A DNA stretch of 64,000 nucleotides, taken from positions 62,001 through 126,000 of the forward strand of contig NZ_JAHCDA010000005.1 of assembly GCF_018413645.1 (NCBI RefSeq), written 5' to 3'. The position numbers and the translations under genes are program-made. Shown here piece by piece: positions 19,335 through 28,842 of this stretch; positions within the stretch are counted from its first letter, which is position 1; every line of letters begins with the position of its first letter. The DNA is from Roseococcus pinisoli (lineage in GTDB: Bacteria; Pseudomonadota; Alphaproteobacteria; Acetobacterales; Acetobacteraceae). The notes under the pieces were generated by a model, which was given only the letters and a program-made list of their open reading frames with translations, did no database searches and was not told the origin of the DNA.

Positions 19335-20858
19335 CTAGCTGTCGACGCTCGCGGTAGCGGCCGTCCGGCGGCGCCGCGTCGCCAGGGCGTAGAGGCGGGG
19401 CCCGAACAGGGCCAGAGCCGCCAGGATCAGGATGATGAGGCTGCCGGGGCGGGTCACGAAGGTGGTCCAGTCGCCCTCGCTGATGGTCATGGCCTGCCGC
19501 AGCGCCTGTTCCGCCATGGGTCCCAAGATCATGCCGATGATCACTGGCGCCACCGGGAAGTCGAAGCGCCGCATGAACATGCCGATGATGCCGATGCCGT
19601 AGAGCAGCAGCAGGTCCGTGACCGAGTTGGAGATGCCGTAGGTGCCGATCGTCGCGAAGACCAGGATGCCGGCATAGAGCTGCGGCGTTGGGATCTTCAG
19701 GATCTTCACCCAGAGGCCGACCAGCGGCAGGTTCAGCACCACCAGCATGACATTGGCGATGAACAGGCTGGCGATCAGCGTCCAGACCAGATCGGCCTGG
19801 GTCTGGAAAAGCAGCGGCCCCGGCTGGATGCCGTAGCTCTGGAAAGCGGACAGCATGATCGCGGCCGTCGCGCTGGTGGGCAGGCCCAGCGTCAGCATCG
19901 GCACCAGGATGCCGGCGGCGGCCGCATTGTTCGCGGCCTCCGGCCCGGCCACGCCCTCGATGGCGCCCGTCGTGCCGAATTCATGGGCGTATTCGGGCGC
20001 GACCAGCTTCTTCTCCGCGTAGTAGCTCAGCATGGTCGGCATCTCGGTGCCGCCGGCGGGCATCACGCCGAAGGGGAAGCCCAGCCCCGCGCCGCGGATC
20101 CAGGGCCAGAAGCTGCGCTTGAGGTCCGTGCGCGAGAGCCAGAGCCGGCCCACCGGCAGCACCTGCACCTTCCCGTCCACGTGGTTCCAGGCCATGTGCA
20201 GCGCCTCCGCCACCGCGAAGAGCGCGACCGCGACGAGCACGACGTTCACGCCATCGAAGAGCTCGGGCAGTCCGAAGGTCATGCGGGGTTGGCCGGTCTG
20301 CAGGTCGATGCCGACGAGGCCCAGCGAGAGCCCGAAGAACAGGCTGGTCAGCCCCCGCAGCGGCGAGCCGCCCAGCACCGCCGAGACGGTGACGAAGCAG
20401 AGCAGCATCAGCGAGAAATACTCGGCCGGCCCGAGCACGAGCGCGAAGTCCACGACGACGGGGCCGAGGAAGGCGATGCCCAGCGTGCCCACCACGCCGG
20501 CCACGAAGCTGCCCACCGCCGAGGTCGCCAGCGCCGGCCCCGCGCGGCCGTTGCGCGCCATCTTCGCCCCCTCGAGGGCCGTGATGATGGAGCCGGACTC
20601 CCCCGGCGTGTTCAGCAGGATGGAGGTGGTGCTGCCGCCATACATCGCGCCGTAGAAGACGCCGCAGAAGAGGATGAAGGCACCGGTCGCGCTCACCTGG
20701 TAGGTGATGGGCAGCAGCAGCGCGATGGTCAGCGCCGGCCCGATGCCCGGCAGCACGCCGACCGCGGTGCCGAGGAAGCAGCCCAGCAGCGCCCAGCCCA
20801 GGTTGCCGAGGCTGAAGGCATGCGAGAAGCCCAGGGAAAGTCCGTCGATCGCGTTCAT
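19335..20858 (-). CDS. tctA: Tripartite tricarboxylate transporter, large membrane subunit TctA
   Basis: 507 residues with about 12 hydrophobic helices and the TctA signature [22 protein letters not shown] near the N-terminus and the matching [18 protein letters not shown] repeat in the middle. Inner membrane, secondary uptake driven by ion gradient with a periplasmic binding protein. Stop of tctB and start of tctA overlap by one base (TGATG). Substrate unknown; TctABC systems carry citrate and other carboxylates. Confidence 0.93.
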
Positions 20859-21367
20859 CAGACCGGCTCCTGGCCCATCAGGCGGAGAATGAAGCTCTCG
20901 AGCAGCCCGGCGCCGATATTCACGCCGAGGCCCTGCACGAAGAGGAACCAGACCAGCAGCGTCAGCGGCAGGGCGATCAGCAGGTCCCGCAACATGGAGC
21001 GGCTGCCGAAGGCGGCCGCCACCAGCACGAACTGCGCCGAGGCCGCGATGGAGAAGCCCGCGGGGACGATCAGGACCAGGTTCACCAGCAGCCCGGCGAG
21101 AAGCAGGCCCATCGCGCGGCGGTTCAGCGGCCCGGCCTCCGCCATCTCGGGATTCTCATGCGACCAGCCGCCGCGCAGCGCCGAGATGGTGAGGCCGATG
21201 CCCAGCGCCGTCAGCCCGGCGGCGACGACATAGGGAATGGCCTTGGGGCCGACCTGCGCATAGAGCGGCGAGACCGGGATGACGCTGGCCTGCCAGAAGC
21301 CGATGAGGCCGAAGCCCAGGACAACCAGGCCGGCCACCAGGTCCGGCCATGAGAGACGTGATGTCAT
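20858..21367 (-). CDS. tctB: Tripartite tricarboxylate transporter, small membrane subunit TctB
   Basis: 169 residues with four hydrophobic helices and the TctB layout ([19 protein letters not shown] at the N-terminus, [20 protein letters not shown] near the C-terminus). Works with TctA in the inner membrane. Read with tctA and, after a gap of about 100 bases, downstream of tctC. Confidence 0.9.
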
Positions 21368-21470
21368 GGAGCCTCGCGAATCCTCGGTTTCTTGTTTTCC
21401 GACAGGTCAGGAAAGGGCCAGGCCTCCCCGCCGGACGGTCGTCGCATCCTCCGGCGGAGAGGCCGATCGG

Positions 21471-22439
<969 letters not shown>

Positions 22440-22738
22440 CGGGCGTAGCCCCTCCATGCGTCCCGTCGCGTTCGGCCGGGCTCGAGTTTCGCCCCAGGAT
22501 TGTTCCGGGAGAGTTCGGGGCGCAACAGCGAGAATGGCGCAGCAGCCGTGCCGTCTCCACGAAATCGATCAGATGACGGTGGTTTCACCGCTTCCGGGCC
22601 GTGAGGCTTCCATGTCACAGCGTTCAAGTCGCTGATTAAAAAAGCGATACCATCCCGCATTGCCGTAATGAAACGTCTTGCGGAAAGGCAATGTCTCGGA
22701 CAAAGCTCAGGATAGAGGAATCACAAGGCCGCCTCCCG
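22440..22738. promoter_or_regulatory. Divergent gap between tctC and the first repeat-protein gene
   Basis: About 300 bases that must hold the promoters of tctC (minus) and the repeat-protein genes (plus). It includes a relatively AT-rich patch around 22626-22650. I see no clear palindrome or complete -35/-10 pair. Confidence 0.35.
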
Positions 22739-23233
22739 ATGTCCGACGCCGACAAGAAAGATCCCCGCCTGACGCGGCGCCTCCTGGTCGCCCGGCTCGC
22801 GGGCGGGGCGAGCCTTGCCGCGGCCGCCACCGTCGCCTCGGCACCGGCCGAGGCGCAGTCCGGCCGTTCCGACAACGACCCCAATGATCGCGCCGGCTAC
22901 GGCCGCTCGGGCCGCTCCGACAATGACCCCTATGACCGCGGTGGGCGCGGCCGCGGCGGCGGGGGCGGCTATCGGACCGGCATCACCGACAACGATCCCA
23001 ATGACGGCGCCGGCAACGGGCGTGGCGGCGGCGGGCGCCGCGGCACGGGCCTCACCGACAATGATCCCAATGACGGCGTCGGCAACGGCCGCGGCGGCGG
23101 GTATCGCCGCGGCACCGGCATCACCGACAACGATCCCAATGATGGCGCCGGCAATGGCCGCGGCGGCTATCGCGGGGGCACCGGCCGCACGGACCGCGAC
23201 CCCTATGACGCCGCCGGCCGGGGCCGCTACTAG
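22739..23233 (+). CDS. Exported Asp/Gly/Arg-rich tandem-repeat protein (Tat-like signal)
   Basis: No known function. From the ATG at 22739 (MSDADKKDPRLTRRLLVARL) it is 164 residues: a twin-arginine-like signal with AxA cleavage (SAPAEAQS), then six imperfect repeats of about 22 residues built on TDNDPNDGxGNGRGGG, ending in TDRDPYDAAGRGRY. The closely spaced Asp/Asn residues (DNDPND) resemble short calcium-binding loops of the thrombospondin type 3 kind; calcium binding is inference. Expected to be disordered. An ATG at 22691 with a GGAAAGG site is an alternative start that would add 16 residues. Paralogue of the next gene. Confidence 0.7.
   Translation: MSDADKKDPRLTRRLLVARLAGGASLAAAATVASAPAEAQSGRSDNDPNDRAGYGRSGRSDNDPYDRGGRGRGGGGGYRTGITDNDPNDGAGNGRGGGGRRGTGLTDNDPNDGVGNGRGGGYRRGTGITDNDPNDGAGNGRGGYRGGTGRTDRDPYDAAGRGRY
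22857..23230 (+). repeat. Tandem 66-69-bp coding repeats, first copy set
   Basis: Six imperfect units coding for (S/T)DNDPNDxxGNGRGGGxRxGTG. The inner units are near identical at DNA level (ACCGACAACGATCCCAATGA recurs at 22986 and 23123). Confidence 0.85.
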
Positions 23234-23250
23234 CCCCGGGCGCTGAGCCC

Positions 23251-23275
23251 CGAACCGGCTTCCCAGGCCGGTTCG
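23251..23275 (+). terminator. Hairpin between the two repeat-protein genes
   Basis: Nine-base perfect stem (23251-23259 with 23267-23275) and 7-base loop, just downstream of the first repeat gene. No T run follows, so termination would be weak. Confidence 0.4.
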
Positions 23276-23357
23276 GCCCGCAAGCGCCGCATGCCCGCCG
23301 TCCCTTTGCCACGATCAGCTGCTTTCATGTCCACGCCAGTTTCAGGAGAAGAATGTC

Positions 23358-23891
23358 ATGGGGAATCGTCTGTCCCGCCGCCTGCTGATTTTGCGCGCGG
23401 TCGCGCTCGGCGGAAGCGGAACGGCGCTGGCGGCCTGCGTGCCCGCGCAGCCGGGCTATTATCCCCAGCCCATGCCGGTCTCCACGGGCCTGACCGACGG
23501 TGATCCCAACGACCCCGTGGGCAATGGGCGCGGCGGCGGTGGCGGCTATCGCCGCGGCACCGGCATCACCGACAACGATCCCAACGACGGCGTCGGCAAC
23601 GGGCGCGGCGGCGGGTATCGCCGTGGCACCGGCCTCACCGACGGCGACCCCAATGACCCCGCCGGCAACGGGCGCGGCGGCGGGTATCGCCGTGGCACGG
23701 GCCTGACCGACGGTGATCCCAACGACCCCGCGGGCAATGGGCGTGGCGGCGGCTACCGCCGCGGCACGGGCCTGACCGACAACGACCCCAATGACGGCGT
23801 CGGCAACGGGCGCGGCGGCTATCGCGGCGGCGGCTACACCGGGCGCTCGGATCGCGACCCCTATGATGCCGCGGGCCGCGGCCGCTACTAG
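23358..23891 (+). CDS. Tandem-repeat lipoprotein, paralogue of upstream gene
   Basis: No known function. 177 residues: twin arginine (NRLSRRLLILRAVALGGSG) and a lipobox LAAC (Cys26-27 region), so probably exported and lipid-anchored. The mature part is six repeats of about 23 residues on TGLTDGDPNDPAGNGRGGGYRRG, closing with SDRDPYDAAGRGRY exactly as in the upstream paralogue. Alternating DGDPNDP and DNDPNDG versions suggest recent internal duplication. Upstream and downstream hairpins (23251-23275, 23904-23931) bracket it. Likely envelope-associated; a cation-binding or matrix role is speculation. Confidence 0.75.
   Translation: MGNRLSRRLLILRAVALGGSGTALAACVPAQPGYYPQPMPVSTGLTDGDPNDPVGNGRGGGGGYRRGTGITDNDPNDGVGNGRGGGYRRGTGLTDGDPNDPAGNGRGGGYRRGTGLTDGDPNDPAGNGRGGGYRRGTGLTDNDPNDGVGNGRGGYRGGGYTGRSDRDPYDAAGRGRY
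23490..23885 (+). repeat. Tandem 69-bp coding repeats, second copy set
   Basis: Six units in frame. The units around 23625-23760 are almost identical in DNA (GGCGGCGGGTATCGCCGTGG occurs at about 23609 and 23678), pointing to recent expansion. Confidence 0.85.
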
Positions 23892-23903
23892 CCTTCCGCC
23901 ACG

Positions 23904-23931
23904 GACCACGCGCCAACCCGCGCGCGTGGTC
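23904..23931 (+). terminator. Hairpin after repeat lipoprotein gene
   Basis: Perfect 10-bp stem GACCACGCGC / GCGCGTGGTC with an 8-base loop, 13 bases after the stop codon. No T run; could stabilise the message or stop transcription with help. Confidence 0.45.
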
Positions 23932-23971
23932 GCTCCACAAAACCCGCCTTATGCCTGATGGACCACGGCCC

Positions 23972-25111
23972 ATGGATCAAGGACTGACGGAAGCCGCCTT
24001 CGAGCTCGCCTTCCCGGGCATGGAGGTCGATGAGGTGCTCGCGCTGCGCGAGGGGCGGAACTGGCGCTACTTCCCGGCCCAGGACGCCAGCCGCTTCGAC
24101 CATCTCGTCAGCGTGGCGGCGATCGACGCGCATCTGCGCACCGATGGCGCGCGGGCACCGCGCGTCTCCATGGCGGACGAATCGCGCAACGGCAGCGCCG
24201 GCGTTCCCGAGCACGAATTCGCCCTGCCGGATGGCCGCGTGGACCTGCCCAACCTGCTGCTGCGCTTCGATGCGGGCGCCTCGCTGGTCCTTTCGCAATT
24301 CCATGAGAGCCACCCGCCGCTGGCCGATTTCTGTCGCGGGCTGGAGCGGCTGTTCCTGCATGGCGTGCAGGCCAATATCTACCTCACCCCGCCCGCCGCG
24401 CAGGGCTTCCGCACCCATTACGACACGCATGACGTCTTCGTGATGCAGGTCGAGGGCCGCAAGCGCTGGCGCGTCTGGGACGGCGAGCCCCTGGAACGCC
24501 CGACCCGTCGCACGCCCTGGCAGGGCGACATGCCCCCTGCCGGCAAGCTGCACGAGCTGACCCTCTCGCCGGGCGATGTCCTCTACATCCCGCGCGGCGT
24601 GATGCACGACGCGGCGACGCTGCCGGGGGAGCGCTCGCTCCACATCACCCTCGGCCTGCTCGAGGCGAGCTGGGCCCAGGCCATCCGCAACCTGCTGGAC
24701 GAGATGGAGCTGCGCGACCCGGCGCTGCGCGAGAGCGTACCGACCTGGCGCATCGGCGAGACCGACCTCTTCGCGGCGATGTCCGAGCGCCTCAACGGCC
24801 TGGCCAAGCCGGAGAATGCCGGCCGCCTCACCAATCTGCTGCTGGAGCAGCTGGCACGCGACCGCCAGCCCCTGCCGGCGCGCGGCCTCTTCGCGCCGCT
24901 GCCCGAAGGCCCGCTGCGCCTCACCCAGGGGATGCACACCCATCTTGTGCAGGCGGAGGACGGTGCCGGGACGCTGTTCTGGACGGGCGGGCTGCTCGAG
25001 CTCTCCCCCACCCAGACGGAGACCCTCACGGCGCTGAGCGAGGGCGCTGCGCCCGAGGACAAGGAATTCGCCGGCAAGCTCTGGCGCCTCGGGCTGCTCG
25101 AGCCCGCCTGA
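23972..25111 (+). CDS. JmjC-type cupin oxygenase (2-oxoglutarate/Fe(II), Cupin_4 family)
   Basis: A 379-residue protein like the ribosomal oxygenase RoxA/YcfD group, which hydroxylate protein side chains. The iron triad is visible: His149-x-Asp151 in FRTHYDTHDVF and a distal His224 in RSLHITLGLL, with KRWRVWDG after the first motif and SPGDVLYIPRGVMHDA before the last. The C-terminal third is a dimer/winged-helix-like region. Start at 23972 is preferred over 23951 because the seven codons between use unusual third bases. It has no signal peptide. It follows two Asp/Asn-rich repeat genes, whose products could be substrates; that link is inference. Confidence 0.8.
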   Translation: MDQGLTEAAFELAFPGMEVDEVLALREGRNWRYFPAQDASRFDHLVSVAAIDAHLRTDGARAPRVSMADESRNGSAGVPEHEFALPDGRVDLPNLLLRFDAGASLVLSQFHESHPPLADFCRGLERLFLHGVQANIYLTPPAAQGFRTHYDTHDVFVMQVEGRKRWRVWDGEPLERPTRRTPWQGDMPPAGKLHELTLSPGDVLYIPRGVMHDAATLPGERSLHITLGLLEASWAQAIRNLLDEMELRDPALRESVPTWRIGETDLFAAMSERLNGLAKPENAGRLTNLLLEQLARDRQPLPARGLFAPLPEGPLRLTQGMHTHLVQAEDGAGTLFWTGGLLELSPTQTETLTALSEGAAPEDKEFAGKLWRLGLLEPA

Positions 25112-25181
25112 GCCTCCGACCGCGGCAGGGCGAGCCCATTTCGCCCTGTTCGCAACCTTGAGGCCGTGGAAAGCTGGACCC

Positions 25182-26738
25182 ATGCCTCATCTTGCCCAGC
25201 GCCTCGATTCCGTCCTCTCCCGGCTCCCACGTGCCTATCCCGGCCCCGGCGGGGCCGTCGCCGTCCTGCGCGGCGGGGAGGTCCTGGCCCGCCATGCCTG
25301 GGGCTGGGCCAATGCCGAGCGGCGGATCCCCTTCACGCCGCGCACGCTCTTCCGCCTCTGCTCCATCACCAAGCAGTTCACCTGCGCCACGCTGCTGGAC
25401 CTCTTCCCCGATCCGGCCGCACTGGACGGCGCCCTGCGGGAAAAGCTGCCGCTGCTGGAAGGGCCGGCGCCGACCGTGGCCCATCTCGCCCACAACCAGT
25501 CCGGCCTCCGGGACTATTGGGCGGTGGCGATGCTGCAGGGCTCGCCCGTCGAGGCGCCTTTCGGCGACACGGAGGCGGAGCGGCTGATCGCCGGCACGCG
25601 CGCGCTGCATTTCGCGCCCGGCACCCGCTACTCCTACGTGAACCAGAACTTCCGCCTGCTCTCGGACATGCTGCAGGACCGCTCCGGGCGAGCCTTCGCC
25701 GACCTGCTGCGCCGCCACGTCTTCGAGCGCGCGGGGATGGAGACCGCCTTCCTCGCGGCCGATACCCGCGCCATGCCCGACGGCACGGAAGGCTACGAAG
25801 GCTCCCAGGCCGGGGGGTTCCGGGCGGCCGAGAACCGCATCCTCTGGACCGGCGATGCCGGCCTCGGCGCCTCGCTGGACGACATGATCGCCTGGGAGCG
25901 GCATCTCGACGCGACGCGCGACGAGCCGGCCTCGCTCTACGGCCGCATCTCGGCGCCCGTCGCCTTCTCGGACGGGGCGCCGGCCGCCTATGGCTTCGGG
26001 CTCTCCCGCGGCACGGATTTCGGACGGGAGCATACCGGCCATGGCGGCGCGCTGCGCGGCTGGCGCAGCCACCGGCTCTATGTGCCGTCGGAGCGTGTCT
26101 CCGTCGTCGTGATGTTCAACCATTTCGGCGACGCGCATGGCGCCGCGCTCGACCTGCTGGCCGCCACGCTCGACGAGACCAGGCCCGCGGCCGATCCCAC
26201 GCTGCCGCCGCCCGCCTGGCTCGGCGCCTATGTCGAGCCGGAGACCGGGCTCTCGGCACGGATCGAGGCGGTGGCGCCGGGCCAGCTCCTGCTGCGCTTC
26301 GGCCATTCGCCCGAGCGGCTCGACATCGCCACCGACGGCAGTGCCGGCAATGGCCGCACGCGGCTGCGCCAGGACGGCGAGGCACTGTGGATGGACCGCC
26401 CGCAGGAGAATTTCAGCACCCGCCTCCTGCCCGTGCACGGCGAGCCGGCGACCGATCTGGGCGGCCGCTACCGCTGCGCCGAGCTGGGCGCCGAGCTGAC
26501 CGTGGTGGAGACGGGCGGCACGCTTTATGGCGGCTTCTCGGGCTTCCTCGGCCAGGGACGGATGGAGCTGCTGAACCCGATCGCGCCGGACCTCTGGGCC
26601 CTGCCCTGCCCCCGCGCGCTGGACCACACGCCGCCCGGCGACTGGACCCTGGCCTTCCGGCGCGATGCCGCCGGCCGCGCGGTGGGTGTCGAGGTGGGCT
26701 GCTGGCTGGCGCGCGGGCTGCGCTACGACCGGATCTGA
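25182..26738 (+). CDS. dap: D-aminopeptidase (serine peptidase family S12)
   Basis: Releases N-terminal D-residues from peptides in the characterised Ochrobactrum enzyme. 518 residues, the same length, with catalytic Ser61-x-x-Lys64 in LCSITKQF, Tyr152-x-Asn154 in YSYVNQNFR, and His287-Gly-Gly in GHGGALRGW, all at nearly the same positions as in that enzyme. Two C-terminal lipocalin-like barrels follow (about 335-420 and 420-515). No signal peptide, so cytoplasmic. Start at 25182 (MPHLAQRL). 70 bases after the JmjC gene on the same strand; may be co-transcribed. Confidence 0.85.
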   Translation: MPHLAQRLDSVLSRLPRAYPGPGGAVAVLRGGEVLARHAWGWANAERRIPFTPRTLFRLCSITKQFTCATLLDLFPDPAALDGALREKLPLLEGPAPTVAHLAHNQSGLRDYWAVAMLQGSPVEAPFGDTEAERLIAGTRALHFAPGTRYSYVNQNFRLLSDMLQDRSGRAFADLLRRHVFERAGMETAFLAADTRAMPDGTEGYEGSQAGGFRAAENRILWTGDAGLGASLDDMIAWERHLDATRDEPASLYGRISAPVAFSDGAPAAYGFGLSRGTDFGREHTGHGGALRGWRSHRLYVPSERVSVVVMFNHFGDAHGAALDLLAATLDETRPAADPTLPPPAWLGAYVEPETGLSARIEAVAPGQLLLRFGHSPERLDIATDGSAGNGRTRLRQDGEALWMDRPQENFSTRLLPVHGEPATDLGGRYRCAELGAELTVVETGGTLYGGFSGFLGQGRMELLNPIAPDLWALPCPRALDHTPPGDWTLAFRRDAAGRAVGVEVGCWLARGLRYDRI

Positions 26739-26771: not shown

Positions 26772-27545
26772 CTAGCGCGCCTCGCCCGGCGTGATGCCGA
26801 AGGCGGCCCGGAAGGCCGCGCCGAAGGCCGGCGCGCTGGCATAGCCGACGCTCGCCGCCGCCTGGGCGGGCGTGGCGCCCCCGGCCAGCAGGGCGGCCGC
26901 TTCCGTCAGGCGCAGCGTCTGCCGCCACCGCGCGAAGCCCATCCCGGTCTCCCGATGGAAGAGCCGCGCCAGCGTCCGAGCGCTGGCGCCGCAGCGCTGC
27001 GCCCATTCGTCCAGCGTGAGGTCGCTCGCCGGCTGCTTCGAAAGCGCCTGTGCCAGGCGCCTCAGGCGCGCATCGTGCAGCGCCGGCACGCCGAAGGGCA
27101 GCCGCGGCGCCCGCGCGATCTCCTCCGCAATCAGCGCCGCCAGGTGTCCGCCGCGCCCGGCCTCGTCCCATTCCAGCGGCTCGGCGCAGGCCGCCAGGAT
27201 GAGCTCCCGCAGCAGGGAGGAAACGCCGAGCACCGCGGTCATTCGTTCGCCCACCTTCGCGGCATCCGCGCGGAAGAAGAGCGAGCGCATCGCCAGACGG
27301 CCCTGGCTGCGCACCTCGTGCTCCAGCCCGGAAGGGACCCAGAGCGCGCGGCCGGGCGGGACGACGAAATGCGCCGCCAGCGTGTCCACCCGCATGACGC
27401 CCTCGATCGCGTAGAGCACCTGCGCGCGCCCGTGATGGTGCCAGCCCGTGGCCTCGCCCTCGCCGTAGTCCCGCACGAAGGCGGCCATGGGCCGGTCGAC
27501 CTGCTCCTGGGCGATGGTGCGGGGGTTATGGCCGAATCGCGACAT
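26772..27545 (-). CDS. AraC-family transcriptional regulator
   Basis: 257 residues with an N-terminal cupin sensor (WHHHGRAQVLYAIEGVMRV, about 35-110) and a C-terminal pair of helix-turn-helix motifs (about 155-255: LDEWAQRCGASARTLARLFHRETGMGFARWRQ and the ATPAQAAASVGYASAPAFGAAFR half). Divergent from the MFS transporter, its likely target, with a 64-base gap holding a small palindrome. Confidence 0.9.
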   Translation of the reverse strand: MSRFGHNPRTIAQEQVDRPMAAFVRDYGEGEATGWHHHGRAQVLYAIEGVMRVDTLAAHFVVPPGRALWVPSGLEHEVRSQGRLAMRSLFFRADAAKVGERMTAVLGVSSLLRELILAACAEPLEWDEAGRGGHLAALIAEEIARAPRLPFGVPALHDARLRRLAQALSKQPASDLTLDEWAQRCGASARTLARLFHRETGMGFARWRQTLRLTEAAALLAGGATPAQAAASVGYASAPAFGAAFRAAFGITPGEAR

Positions 27546-27609: not shown

Positions 27610-28842
27610 ATGACGCCCGCCACCCGGCAGATCTGTCTCATCAATGCCGCGCACCTCTTTACCCATTACGGCCTGCTGATCCTCGCCACGGCGGTGCTCG
27701 CCATGGTGCAGCAGGATGGCGAGATCTTCGGCACCGCCTATGGCCCCGTCCTCGCCCTCGGCACGGCCATGTTCGTGATCTACGGCCTCGGCGCGCTGCC
27801 GATGGGCTGGTTCGCGGCCAAGATCGGCCGCAAGGCGATGATGACGCTGTTCTTCTTCGGCGCCGGCGTCGGCATGGCCTCGGCGGGCTTCGCCACAGGC
27901 CCGCTGGGCCTTGCCATCGGCCTCGTCGTGATGGGCGGCTTCCTGGCCATCTACCACCCGATCGGGACGGCCATCATCGCCGAGGCGGGCGGCGACCGCG
28001 TGGGCCGCGCCATGGGCATCAACGGCGTCTTCGGCAATCTCGGCGTGGCGCTGGCGCCGGTGGTGACGGCCTTCCTCGCGGTGCAGTTCGGCTGGCGCTA
28101 CGCCTTCATCGTGCCCGGCCTGTTCTGCATCGCCGTCGGCCTGATCTACCTGCGCGAACCGGCCTTCGACGCGAAGAAGGCCGGCGTGCAGACGCGCCCC
28201 TTCCCGAAGATTCCGCCGCATGTCGTCCGCCAGGCCGTGGTCTCGCTGCTCTCCATCGGCGCGGTCTCCGGCCTCGTCTTCAACGCCTTCACGCTGCTGC
28301 TGCCCAAGCTCATGGAGGAGCGGCTGGCCGGCAATCCGGACCTGCTTCCGGTGGTCGGCATGCTCGCCTTCCTGGCGACGATCTGCGGCGGCGTGACGCA
28401 GTTCACCGTCGGCCAGATGATCGACCGCAAGACGCTGAAGTCGGTCTTCATGCCTCTGACGCTGGTGCTGGTGCCCGGCCTGCTGGCGCTGTCCTTCCTG
28501 GACGGCTGGATCGTGCTGCCGGTCTCCGCCCTCGTGGCCTCGGCCATCTTCGGCCAGGTGACCGTGAACGAGACCATGACGGCGCGCTACATCGCGCCGG
28601 AGATGCGGGCCAAGATCTATTCGATCCGCTTCACGGTGGGCTTCATGGGCGCGGCGCTGGCCTCGCCCATCGTGGGGCTGCTGCATGAGGCCACCGGCAA
28701 CCTGGCCCTGGTCATGGTCGTGCTGGCGGCCTTCGCGATGGTGATGCTGGTCTGCGCCATCTGGTTCCCGAACCGGCCGGAGGAGCTGAAGCCGGAACTC
28801 TGGAGCGCGCCCGCCGCCGCGGCACCGGCCGCCGCCGAATAG
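27610..28842 (+). CDS. Major facilitator superfamily transporter
   Basis: 410 residues with about 12 hydrophobic helices. The conserved loop 2-3 motif is visible as GWFAAKIGRKAMM. The central loop ends in KIPPHVVRQ. Inner membrane. Its layout resembles the fosmidomycin-resistance/YfcJ-like efflux group, but the substrate cannot be given. Divergent from an AraC regulator and ends at a bidirectional hairpin shared with katG. Confidence 0.85.
   Translation: MTPATRQICLINAAHLFTHYGLLILATAVLAMVQQDGEIFGTAYGPVLALGTAMFVIYGLGALPMGWFAAKIGRKAMMTLFFFGAGVGMASAGFATGPLGLAIGLVVMGGFLAIYHPIGTAIIAEAGGDRVGRAMGINGVFGNLGVALAPVVTAFLAVQFGWRYAFIVPGLFCIAVGLIYLREPAFDAKKAGVQTRPFPKIPPHVVRQAVVSLLSIGAVSGLVFNAFTLLLPKLMEERLAGNPDLLPVVGMLAFLATICGGVTQFTVGQMIDRKTLKSVFMPLTLVLVPGLLALSFLDGWIVLPVSALVASAIFGQVTVNETMTARYIAPEMRAKIYSIRFTVGFMGAALASPIVGLLHEATGNLALVMVVLAAFAMVMLVCAIWFPNRPEELKPELWSAPAAAAPAAAE

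Follow-up and report, generated by a model that had tools for sequence, protein, structure and literature searches.

We describe two repeat proteins, P0001 and P0002, and a JmjC oxygenase encoded next to them on the same strand in a 64,000-nucleotide stretch of the Roseococcus pinisoli genome (contig NZ_JAHCDA010000005.1, positions 62,001 to 126,000; this whole stretch is called the window below). P0001 and P0002 each carry six units of the form [TS]D.DP.D..G.GR, 12 in total, spaced at 16, 23, 23, 23 and 22 residues in P0001 and at 25, 23, 23, 23 and 24 residues in P0002. A first-pass annotation of this DNA had described two paralogues made of a 22-23-residue unit; both proteins lie where it placed them but the spacing is slightly wider, at 16-25 residues. 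The repeats are not due to chance: when each open reading frame (ORF) listed with two or more copies of a looser motif, the one applied to all loci, was reversed, that motif was found 0 times. The oxygenase gene starts 80 bases after P0002, or 59 with the earlier start codon. With regard to the start at 23972, the orthologues at loci L068 and L070 have no start codon before the equivalent residue. A scan of 22450-25250 for sigma-70 promoters and terminators found none and was uninformative.

Table 1. The repeat-oxygenase locus and its neighbours, by position in the window.
Feature	Position	Strand	Remark
Repeat protein 1 (P0001), 164 aa	22739..23233	+	Predicted Tat-exported soluble substrate, six units
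Predicted Tat signal peptide of P0001	22739..22855	+	RR at residues 13-14, A-E-A before Q40; read from sequence by eye
Six [TS]D-x-DP-x-D-x-x-G-x-GR units of P0001	22868..23230	+	Motif count
Repeat protein 2 (P0002), 177 aa	23358..23891	+	Predicted Tat-exported lipoprotein, six units
Predicted lipoprotein signal of P0002	23358..23438	+	RR at residues 7-8, L-A-A-C lipobox, Cys27; read by eye
Six [TS]D-x-DP-x-D-x-x-G-x-GR units of P0002	23493..23888	+	Motif count
JmjC_2 (PF08007) Fe(II)/2-oxoglutarate oxygenase, 379 aa	23972..25111	+	Proposed dedicated modifying enzyme; alternative start 23951
H149-x-D151 iron ligands of oxygenase	24416..24424	+	Alignment
Third iron ligand H212	24605-24607	+	Alignment
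2-oxoglutarate-binding K164	24461-24463	+	Alignment
D-aminopeptidase (DAP_B + beta-lactamase) gene	25182-26738		Downstream of oxygenase; Pfam match
AraC-type regulator	26772-27545	opposite	Between D-aminopeptidase and MFS_1 genes
MFS_1 pump	27610-28842		Pfam match
Tripartite tricarboxylate transporter genes tctA, tctB, tctC	19335-22457	-	Directly upstream of the pair

The repeat unit

Neither P0001 nor P0002 matched a Pfam family at E up to 1, and against NCBIfam we obtained only a weak match of P0001, in its signal region and far below the cut-off. Nine more distant repeat proteins likewise matched no Pfam or NCBIfam family above cut-off, and the repeat protein of L244 matched a suprabasin repeat model at E 5.5e-6, under that model's cut-off. 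We found no description of these repeats, or of their pairing with an oxygenase, in the open-access literature searched. Across loci the unit takes two forms, D-x-D-x2-D and D-x-D-x5-D, each followed by x-x-G-x-G-R. When one anchor is tested at a time, so that its conservation is not forced by the search pattern, the figures are 93-100% of units for the three Asp, 100% for the second Gly and about 95% for the Arg; a separate count for D2, D4, D7 and G10 is forced by its pattern. Pro is frequent only in the short form, where it occupies 90% of gap-2 units, and the same site is mostly Ser or Thr in gap-5 units; proline was rejected as a universal target on this basis. In one family (f23), four genomes encode small one- or two-unit proteins on the strand opposite to that of the enzyme. 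The host itself has a third repeat protein, unlinked to the oxygenase (L007:3824-4384, on G000:C1). Two genes near it, which we take to be clpB and a MOSC-domain gene, also have a repeat gene nearby in L094 and L096, so this orphan repeat locus looks syntenic in some relatives.

Pairing of the repeats with the oxygenase

The pairing was followed in 110 loci carrying enzymes of one clade (20 + 80 + 10, the 80 being the best of 559 candidate relatives, chosen by enzyme similarity and not by neighbours), from which eight were dropped for having identical last 250 enzyme residues, leaving 102 distinct loci. In 93 of these, an ORF with two or more repeat units is found on the enzyme's strand no further than 1.5 kb away, upstream of the enzyme in 91; at L130 the adjoining repeat ORF is cut by the contig end, giving a total of 94/102 loci with an adjacent repeat gene. 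By contrast, no repeat ORF was present at any of 21 control loci, which are 21 of the 39 RoxA-like matches outside the clade. The genes are closely packed in the distinct loci: 81/89 gaps are 100 bases or less and 10/89 are exactly -4, although some overlaps may be overstated because the gaps use the first possible start codons. Eight clade loci have no adjacent repeat gene (L079, L132, L135, L139, L155, L166, L177 and L241), and the genomes of the first six carry a repeat gene elsewhere.

Whole genomes gave a similar picture. Among 100 relatives, the repeat (E up to 0.001) and the clade enzyme (E < 1e-40) occur in the same 26 genomes; the enzyme cut was chosen with the list in view, where no value falls between 1.0e-42 and 1.4e-28. 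Of 385 genomes of the class, 12 have the enzyme (best E 7.8e-187 to 1.9e-95, with the next genome at 7.0e-50) and 11 have the repeat (E up to 1e-5), all 11 being among the 12; the twelfth is G261. In 398 genomes of the phylum the enzyme was found in eight (E up to 1e-60), all of them members of the window's class, and the repeat in seven, all within the eight; in the eighth, G731, two small repeat proteins adjoining the enzyme had escaped the search. These three samples overlap, and the class and phylum searches scored just a few first-look candidates in each genome. Repeat genes spread without a neighbouring oxygenase, which the first-pass annotation had named as refuting evidence, gave a divided answer: many repeat genes do lie away from the oxygenase (L007:3824-4384 and 20 further regions) but none was found in a searched genome that lacks the clade oxygenase. 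The pair spans several alphaproteobacterial families and two deep subclades. The association that had been suspected from a single locus thus holds as a conserved pair, by adjacency and by whole-genome co-occurrence, and the oxygenase and the repeat proteins are very probably enzyme and substrate.

The other neighbours are far less constant. Relatives of the D-aminopeptidase, the AraC regulator, the MFS pump, TctA, TctB and TctC were found in 0, 7, 8, 14, 17 and 21 of 97 loci respectively (mostly with 5 kb flanks), and all of them were rejected as parts of the module. The D-aminopeptidase and the pump had been suggested to extend the set; both are in place, and their membership is not borne out. 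The AraC-type gene between them had gone unmentioned. In blind clustering of the neighbours the commonest families were the enzyme, the repeat proteins and shadow ORFs that overlap one or the other; it was noisy, clusters in 90 and 36 loci being almost wholly shadow ORFs of the enzyme or repeat genes, and one further cluster was present in 30 loci.

The oxygenase

The oxygenase matches JmjC_2 (PF08007) at E 1.8e-27 with 95.8 bits against a gathering cut-off of 22, and its H149-x-D151...H212 triad is intact, as the first-pass annotation had read it from the letters. H149, D151 and K164 are present in 102/102 distinct clade loci and H212 in 100/102, the other two having a gap and a Leu; the enzyme thus looks catalytically competent. 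An AlphaFold2 model computed from 14 clade sequences (mean predicted local distance difference test score, pLDDT, 88.8; predicted template modelling score, pTM, 0.84) found as its best solved structural matches NO66, then MINA53 and YcfD, with 4ccj_A among them (E 2.1e-23, query TM-score, TMq, 0.70, root-mean-square deviation 5.7). We therefore predict a ribosomal oxygenase (ROX) fold whose nearest human relative is NO66. Sequence comparison also places NO66 (E 8.1e-22) closer than E. coli YcfD (E 1.7e-8), and identity to E. coli RoxA is about 20%. YxbC was a lower-ranked structural match, and no paper on its substrate was found in the open-access literature searched.

NO66, MINA53 and YcfD are described as C-3 protein hydroxylases in PMC9994133, and that source and PMC6006756 have NO66 Tyr328 and Ser421 binding the target histidine. 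The Tyr328 equivalent, Y137, is kept in 102/102 clade loci. Ser421 aligns with G228, which is Gly in 100/102 clade loci and a gap in two. A histidine target was rejected for the window, as the repeats of P0001 and P0002 have no His; some His follows the first unit in 28/137 distinct repeat proteins.

In a first tree of 70 rows the linked enzymes fall on one side of a branch that is not strongly supported (Shimodaira-Hasegawa-like approximate likelihood ratio test, SH-aLRT, 81). In a second tree of 44 rows a clade that includes the Streptomyces clavuligerus and Dolichospermum enzymes is supported at 97/92 and the controls group at 100/99. E. coli RoxA sits on the other side of the branch bounding the clade, a placement made unsure by its very long branch. 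One metagenome-assembled genome labelled Gammaproteobacteria (L181) has a clade enzyme that falls among alphaproteobacterial ones in the trees, by transfer, misbinning or mislabelling. The host also has a second, separate JmjC gene, which is RoxA-like (G000:C1:994558).

Export signals

Reading the sequences of P0001 and P0002 recovered all the signal elements noted in the first pass: the twin arginines, the A-x-A site that precedes the repeats of P0001 and the lipobox of P0002. A hydrophobic stretch follows the twin arginines in both proteins. Twin arginines with a hydrophobic stretch ahead of the repeats (a 12-residue hydrophobic window no more than 24 residues after the twin arginine) were found in 134/137 distinct repeat proteins as compared to 332/4745 control ORFs. 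Two of the three exceptions are ORFs cut by the contig start and the third is preceded by degenerate units. Loose patterns found a lipobox in 49 of the 137 and A-x-A in 84 more. The host genome encodes TatC (E 1.7e-73), and it is highly likely that the repeat proteins are exported by the twin-arginine translocation (Tat) system. No signal peptide is visible by eye on the oxygenase; since it also needs 2-oxoglutarate, modification should precede export.

Plasmid-borne relatives

The window enzyme gave 45 matches among plasmid records, all below 60% identity, of which 11 were examined; a type-B repeat protein gave no match at E 1e-5 against 72,556 plasmid records. The S. clavuligerus plasmid enzyme is inside the clade (97/92, with an inner branch at 98/94 in the 44-row tree). 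On the same strand, 91 bases upstream of it, a 48-residue ORF (L310:4529-4675) contains two D-x-D-P-x-D motifs but neither Arg nor a Tat signal. An S9 peptidase gene lies downstream of this enzyme on the other strand. The locus is a possible unstudied cluster for a ribosomally synthesized and post-translationally modified peptide (RiPP) in an antibiotic producer.

Of the enzymes in nine other Streptomyces plasmid records, six were included in the tree and form a separate group (100/100). In 9/9 records a short peptide upstream ends in [R/K][S/G]DGND, two of these peptides being unannotated ORFs, with Lys instead of Arg in three (L313, L315 and L317). Seven of the records (L311, L314 and L316-L320) share a cassette of [R/K]SDGND peptide, cupin-annotated enzyme, aldo/keto reductase and hypothetical protein; the cassette enzyme of L316 is JmjC_2, and its hypothetical protein, the one scanned, has no Pfam match. 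On a Dolichospermum plasmid, whose enzyme groups with that of S. clavuligerus, a 71-residue ORF upstream of the JmjC enzyme (L312:3424-3639) has an SDEDI stretch and a later GG and looks precursor-like, though it has no DxD core. In that record just two ORFs below 260 residues have a D.D...D stretch, both of them short and several kilobases away from the enzyme.

Discussion

Our results point to a two-component module, to which we give a probability of roughly 60%, in which the oxygenase hydroxylates the repeat proteins in the cytoplasm and Tat then exports them. The repeat proteins would be synthesized in the cytoplasm, and there the JmjC oxygenase, with 2-oxoglutarate, Fe(II) and O2, would hydroxylate a single conserved side chain in each unit. 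As the likeliest site we suggest an Asp in the D-x-D-(x2 or x5)-D core, with C-3 as the probable position. Once modified, the proteins, one soluble and one a lipoprotein, would leave by Tat and work outside the cytoplasm, perhaps in metal binding, a role that we put forward as a hypothesis.

As to the residue, granted an enzyme and its substrate, Asp is modestly favoured as the target and Arg is clearly the less probable choice. Asp is preferred over Arg because the S. clavuligerus peptide beside a clade enzyme has two D-x-D-P-x-D motifs and no Arg.

Several observations weigh against this picture. The preference for Asp depends mainly on that one peptide from one species, and the Arg of G-x-G-R is itself conserved. 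The change of Ser421 to Gly argues against a histidine target but is no marker of the clade, because Gly is usual at this position in the control enzymes too (18/21). P0001 and P0002 have no match to the NCBIfam Tat model TIGR01409, and the 6/9 distant relatives that match it are all below the cut-off (11.2-16.0 against 16.7 bits). Two clade loci, L177 and L241, are without an adjacent repeat; the L177 genome had no match to a P0002 query, and the L241 genome (G261) had none to a type-B repeat query, its locus being on a contig of 5,968 bases. The linkage and co-occurrence counts, finally, are not corrected for phylogeny.

The oxygenase could instead act on the Arg of every unit's G-x-G-R, hydroxylating it as E. 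coli RoxA/YcfD hydroxylates uL16 Arg81. YcfD has a related fold and is reported to act on C-3 of that residue (PMC9994133, PMC4295552); about 95% of units retain the Arg, and the peptides of the separate Streptomyces group end in [R/K][S/G]DGND throughout. Set against this are the S. clavuligerus peptide, which lacks Arg next to a clade enzyme, the Lys in three of the nine other Streptomyces peptides and the greater closeness of the window enzyme to NO66 than to E. coli YcfD. On balance we consider Arg hydroxylation throughout the repeats an unlikely account.

The repeat proteins may also be exported multi-core precursors of a RiPP-type system, small modified peptides being released as the product. 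JmjC enzymes are described as hydroxylating Orn in the RiPP biphenomycin, and PMC12710340 reports bacterial PF08007 homologues in RiPP-like contexts and RiPP recognition element (RRE)-like folds fused to PF08007 JmjC domains. A candidate precursor gene adjoins the modifying enzyme in 94/102 loci, and short precursor-like peptides occur in the Streptomyces relatives. In addition, a leader-like stretch, L[TSREQ][DEP][DESTAQ][DEQTASN]I, precedes the twin arginines in 7/7 repeat proteins of one subclade, a motif that was defined after seeing them. It is found in 7/151 repeat ORFs, all from L083, L084, L238, L239, L240 and L245, against a background of 14/7593 ORFs, and by eye a similar stretch is present in the f23 proteins and in the S. 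clavuligerus peptide. Together with the reported RRE-like fusions and RiPP-like contexts this makes leader recognition by the oxygenase plausible in that subclade, as far as sequence can tell. The motif is however in 0/144 other repeat proteins and, by eye, in neither window protein; P0001 and P0002 are 164 and 177 residues long with six units each, and even the commonest window neighbour beyond the pair, tctC, is found in just 21/97 loci. A small-peptide product is accordingly a doubtful reading of the window.

Two further explanations carry very little weight. The oxygenase might act on the ribosome as a RoxA paralogue that aids translation of the Gly/Pro/Asp-rich repeats, in keeping with its ribosomal oxygenase relatives in fold, but the host already has a separate RoxA-like gene and the presence of enzyme and repeat matches exactly in 100 relatives, which makes this very improbable. 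Equally faint is the chance that the two kinds of gene are neighbours by inherited synteny and functionally unconnected: many of the loci are from related genomes, there are orphan repeat genes and tctABC genes are likewise close to the pair in 14-21 of 97 loci, yet the pair stays while other neighbours turn over, spans several families and two deep subclades and is seen at 0/21 control loci.

The proposed module of a cytoplasmic hydroxylase and exported repeats shares features with several known systems. NO66/RIOX1 and MINA53/RIOX2, the ribosomal histidyl C-3 hydroxylases, have the same iron triad, Lys and Tyr328 equivalent and are the closest in solved fold and in sequence; they differ in that their Ser421 equivalent is Gly here, there is no His in the window repeats and the proposed substrate is an exported protein instead of a ribosomal one. 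RoxA/YcfD, the uL16 Arg81 hydroxylase, is also a bacterial member of PF08007 and its overall fold is related, but the window enzyme is only distantly identical to E. coli RoxA, falls on the other side of the clade branch and shares its host with another RoxA-like gene. BipG/PbsQ of the biphenomycin RiPPs are described as JmjC/cupin-like enzymes that modify a neighbouring gene-encoded peptide; they can be likened by description only, and their target is Orn in a short core within a multi-enzyme cluster, whereas here there are two kinds of gene, many units and Tat-type signals. AspH, an Asp/Asn C-3 hydroxylase of epidermal growth factor (EGF)-like domains that belongs to a different enzyme family, would share the proposed chemistry on exported proteins; its oxygenase domain is reported to lie in the lumen of the endoplasmic reticulum.

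We may also speculate on the product. Alphaproteobacteria could make ribosomally encoded poly-hydroxyaspartate proteins, in which tandem D-x-D...D units carrying 3-hydroxyaspartate, in lipoprotein and soluble forms outside the cytoplasm, bind iron or calcium. 3-hydroxyaspartate is a metal-chelating group known from siderophores. This extension is unlikely; if true, the proteins would form a coat that is encoded in the genome, binds metal or mineral and needs oxygen for its modification.

Reported JmjC hydroxylases acting on proteins or peptides include RoxA, NO66, MINA53 and the biphenomycin Orn hydroxylases. For bacterial JmjC oxygenases few peptide or protein substrates were found in the literature searched, namely uL16 (PMC4295552) and the Orn of biphenomycin precursors. 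The present clade comes with its own probable substrates, most of them with several copies of one short unit, and substrate, residue and function become directly testable with two genes. Should hydroxylation of the repeats be confirmed, the module would give bacteria an equivalent, dependent on oxygen and 2-oxoglutarate, of the dense hydroxylation that exported animal proteins such as collagen undergo.

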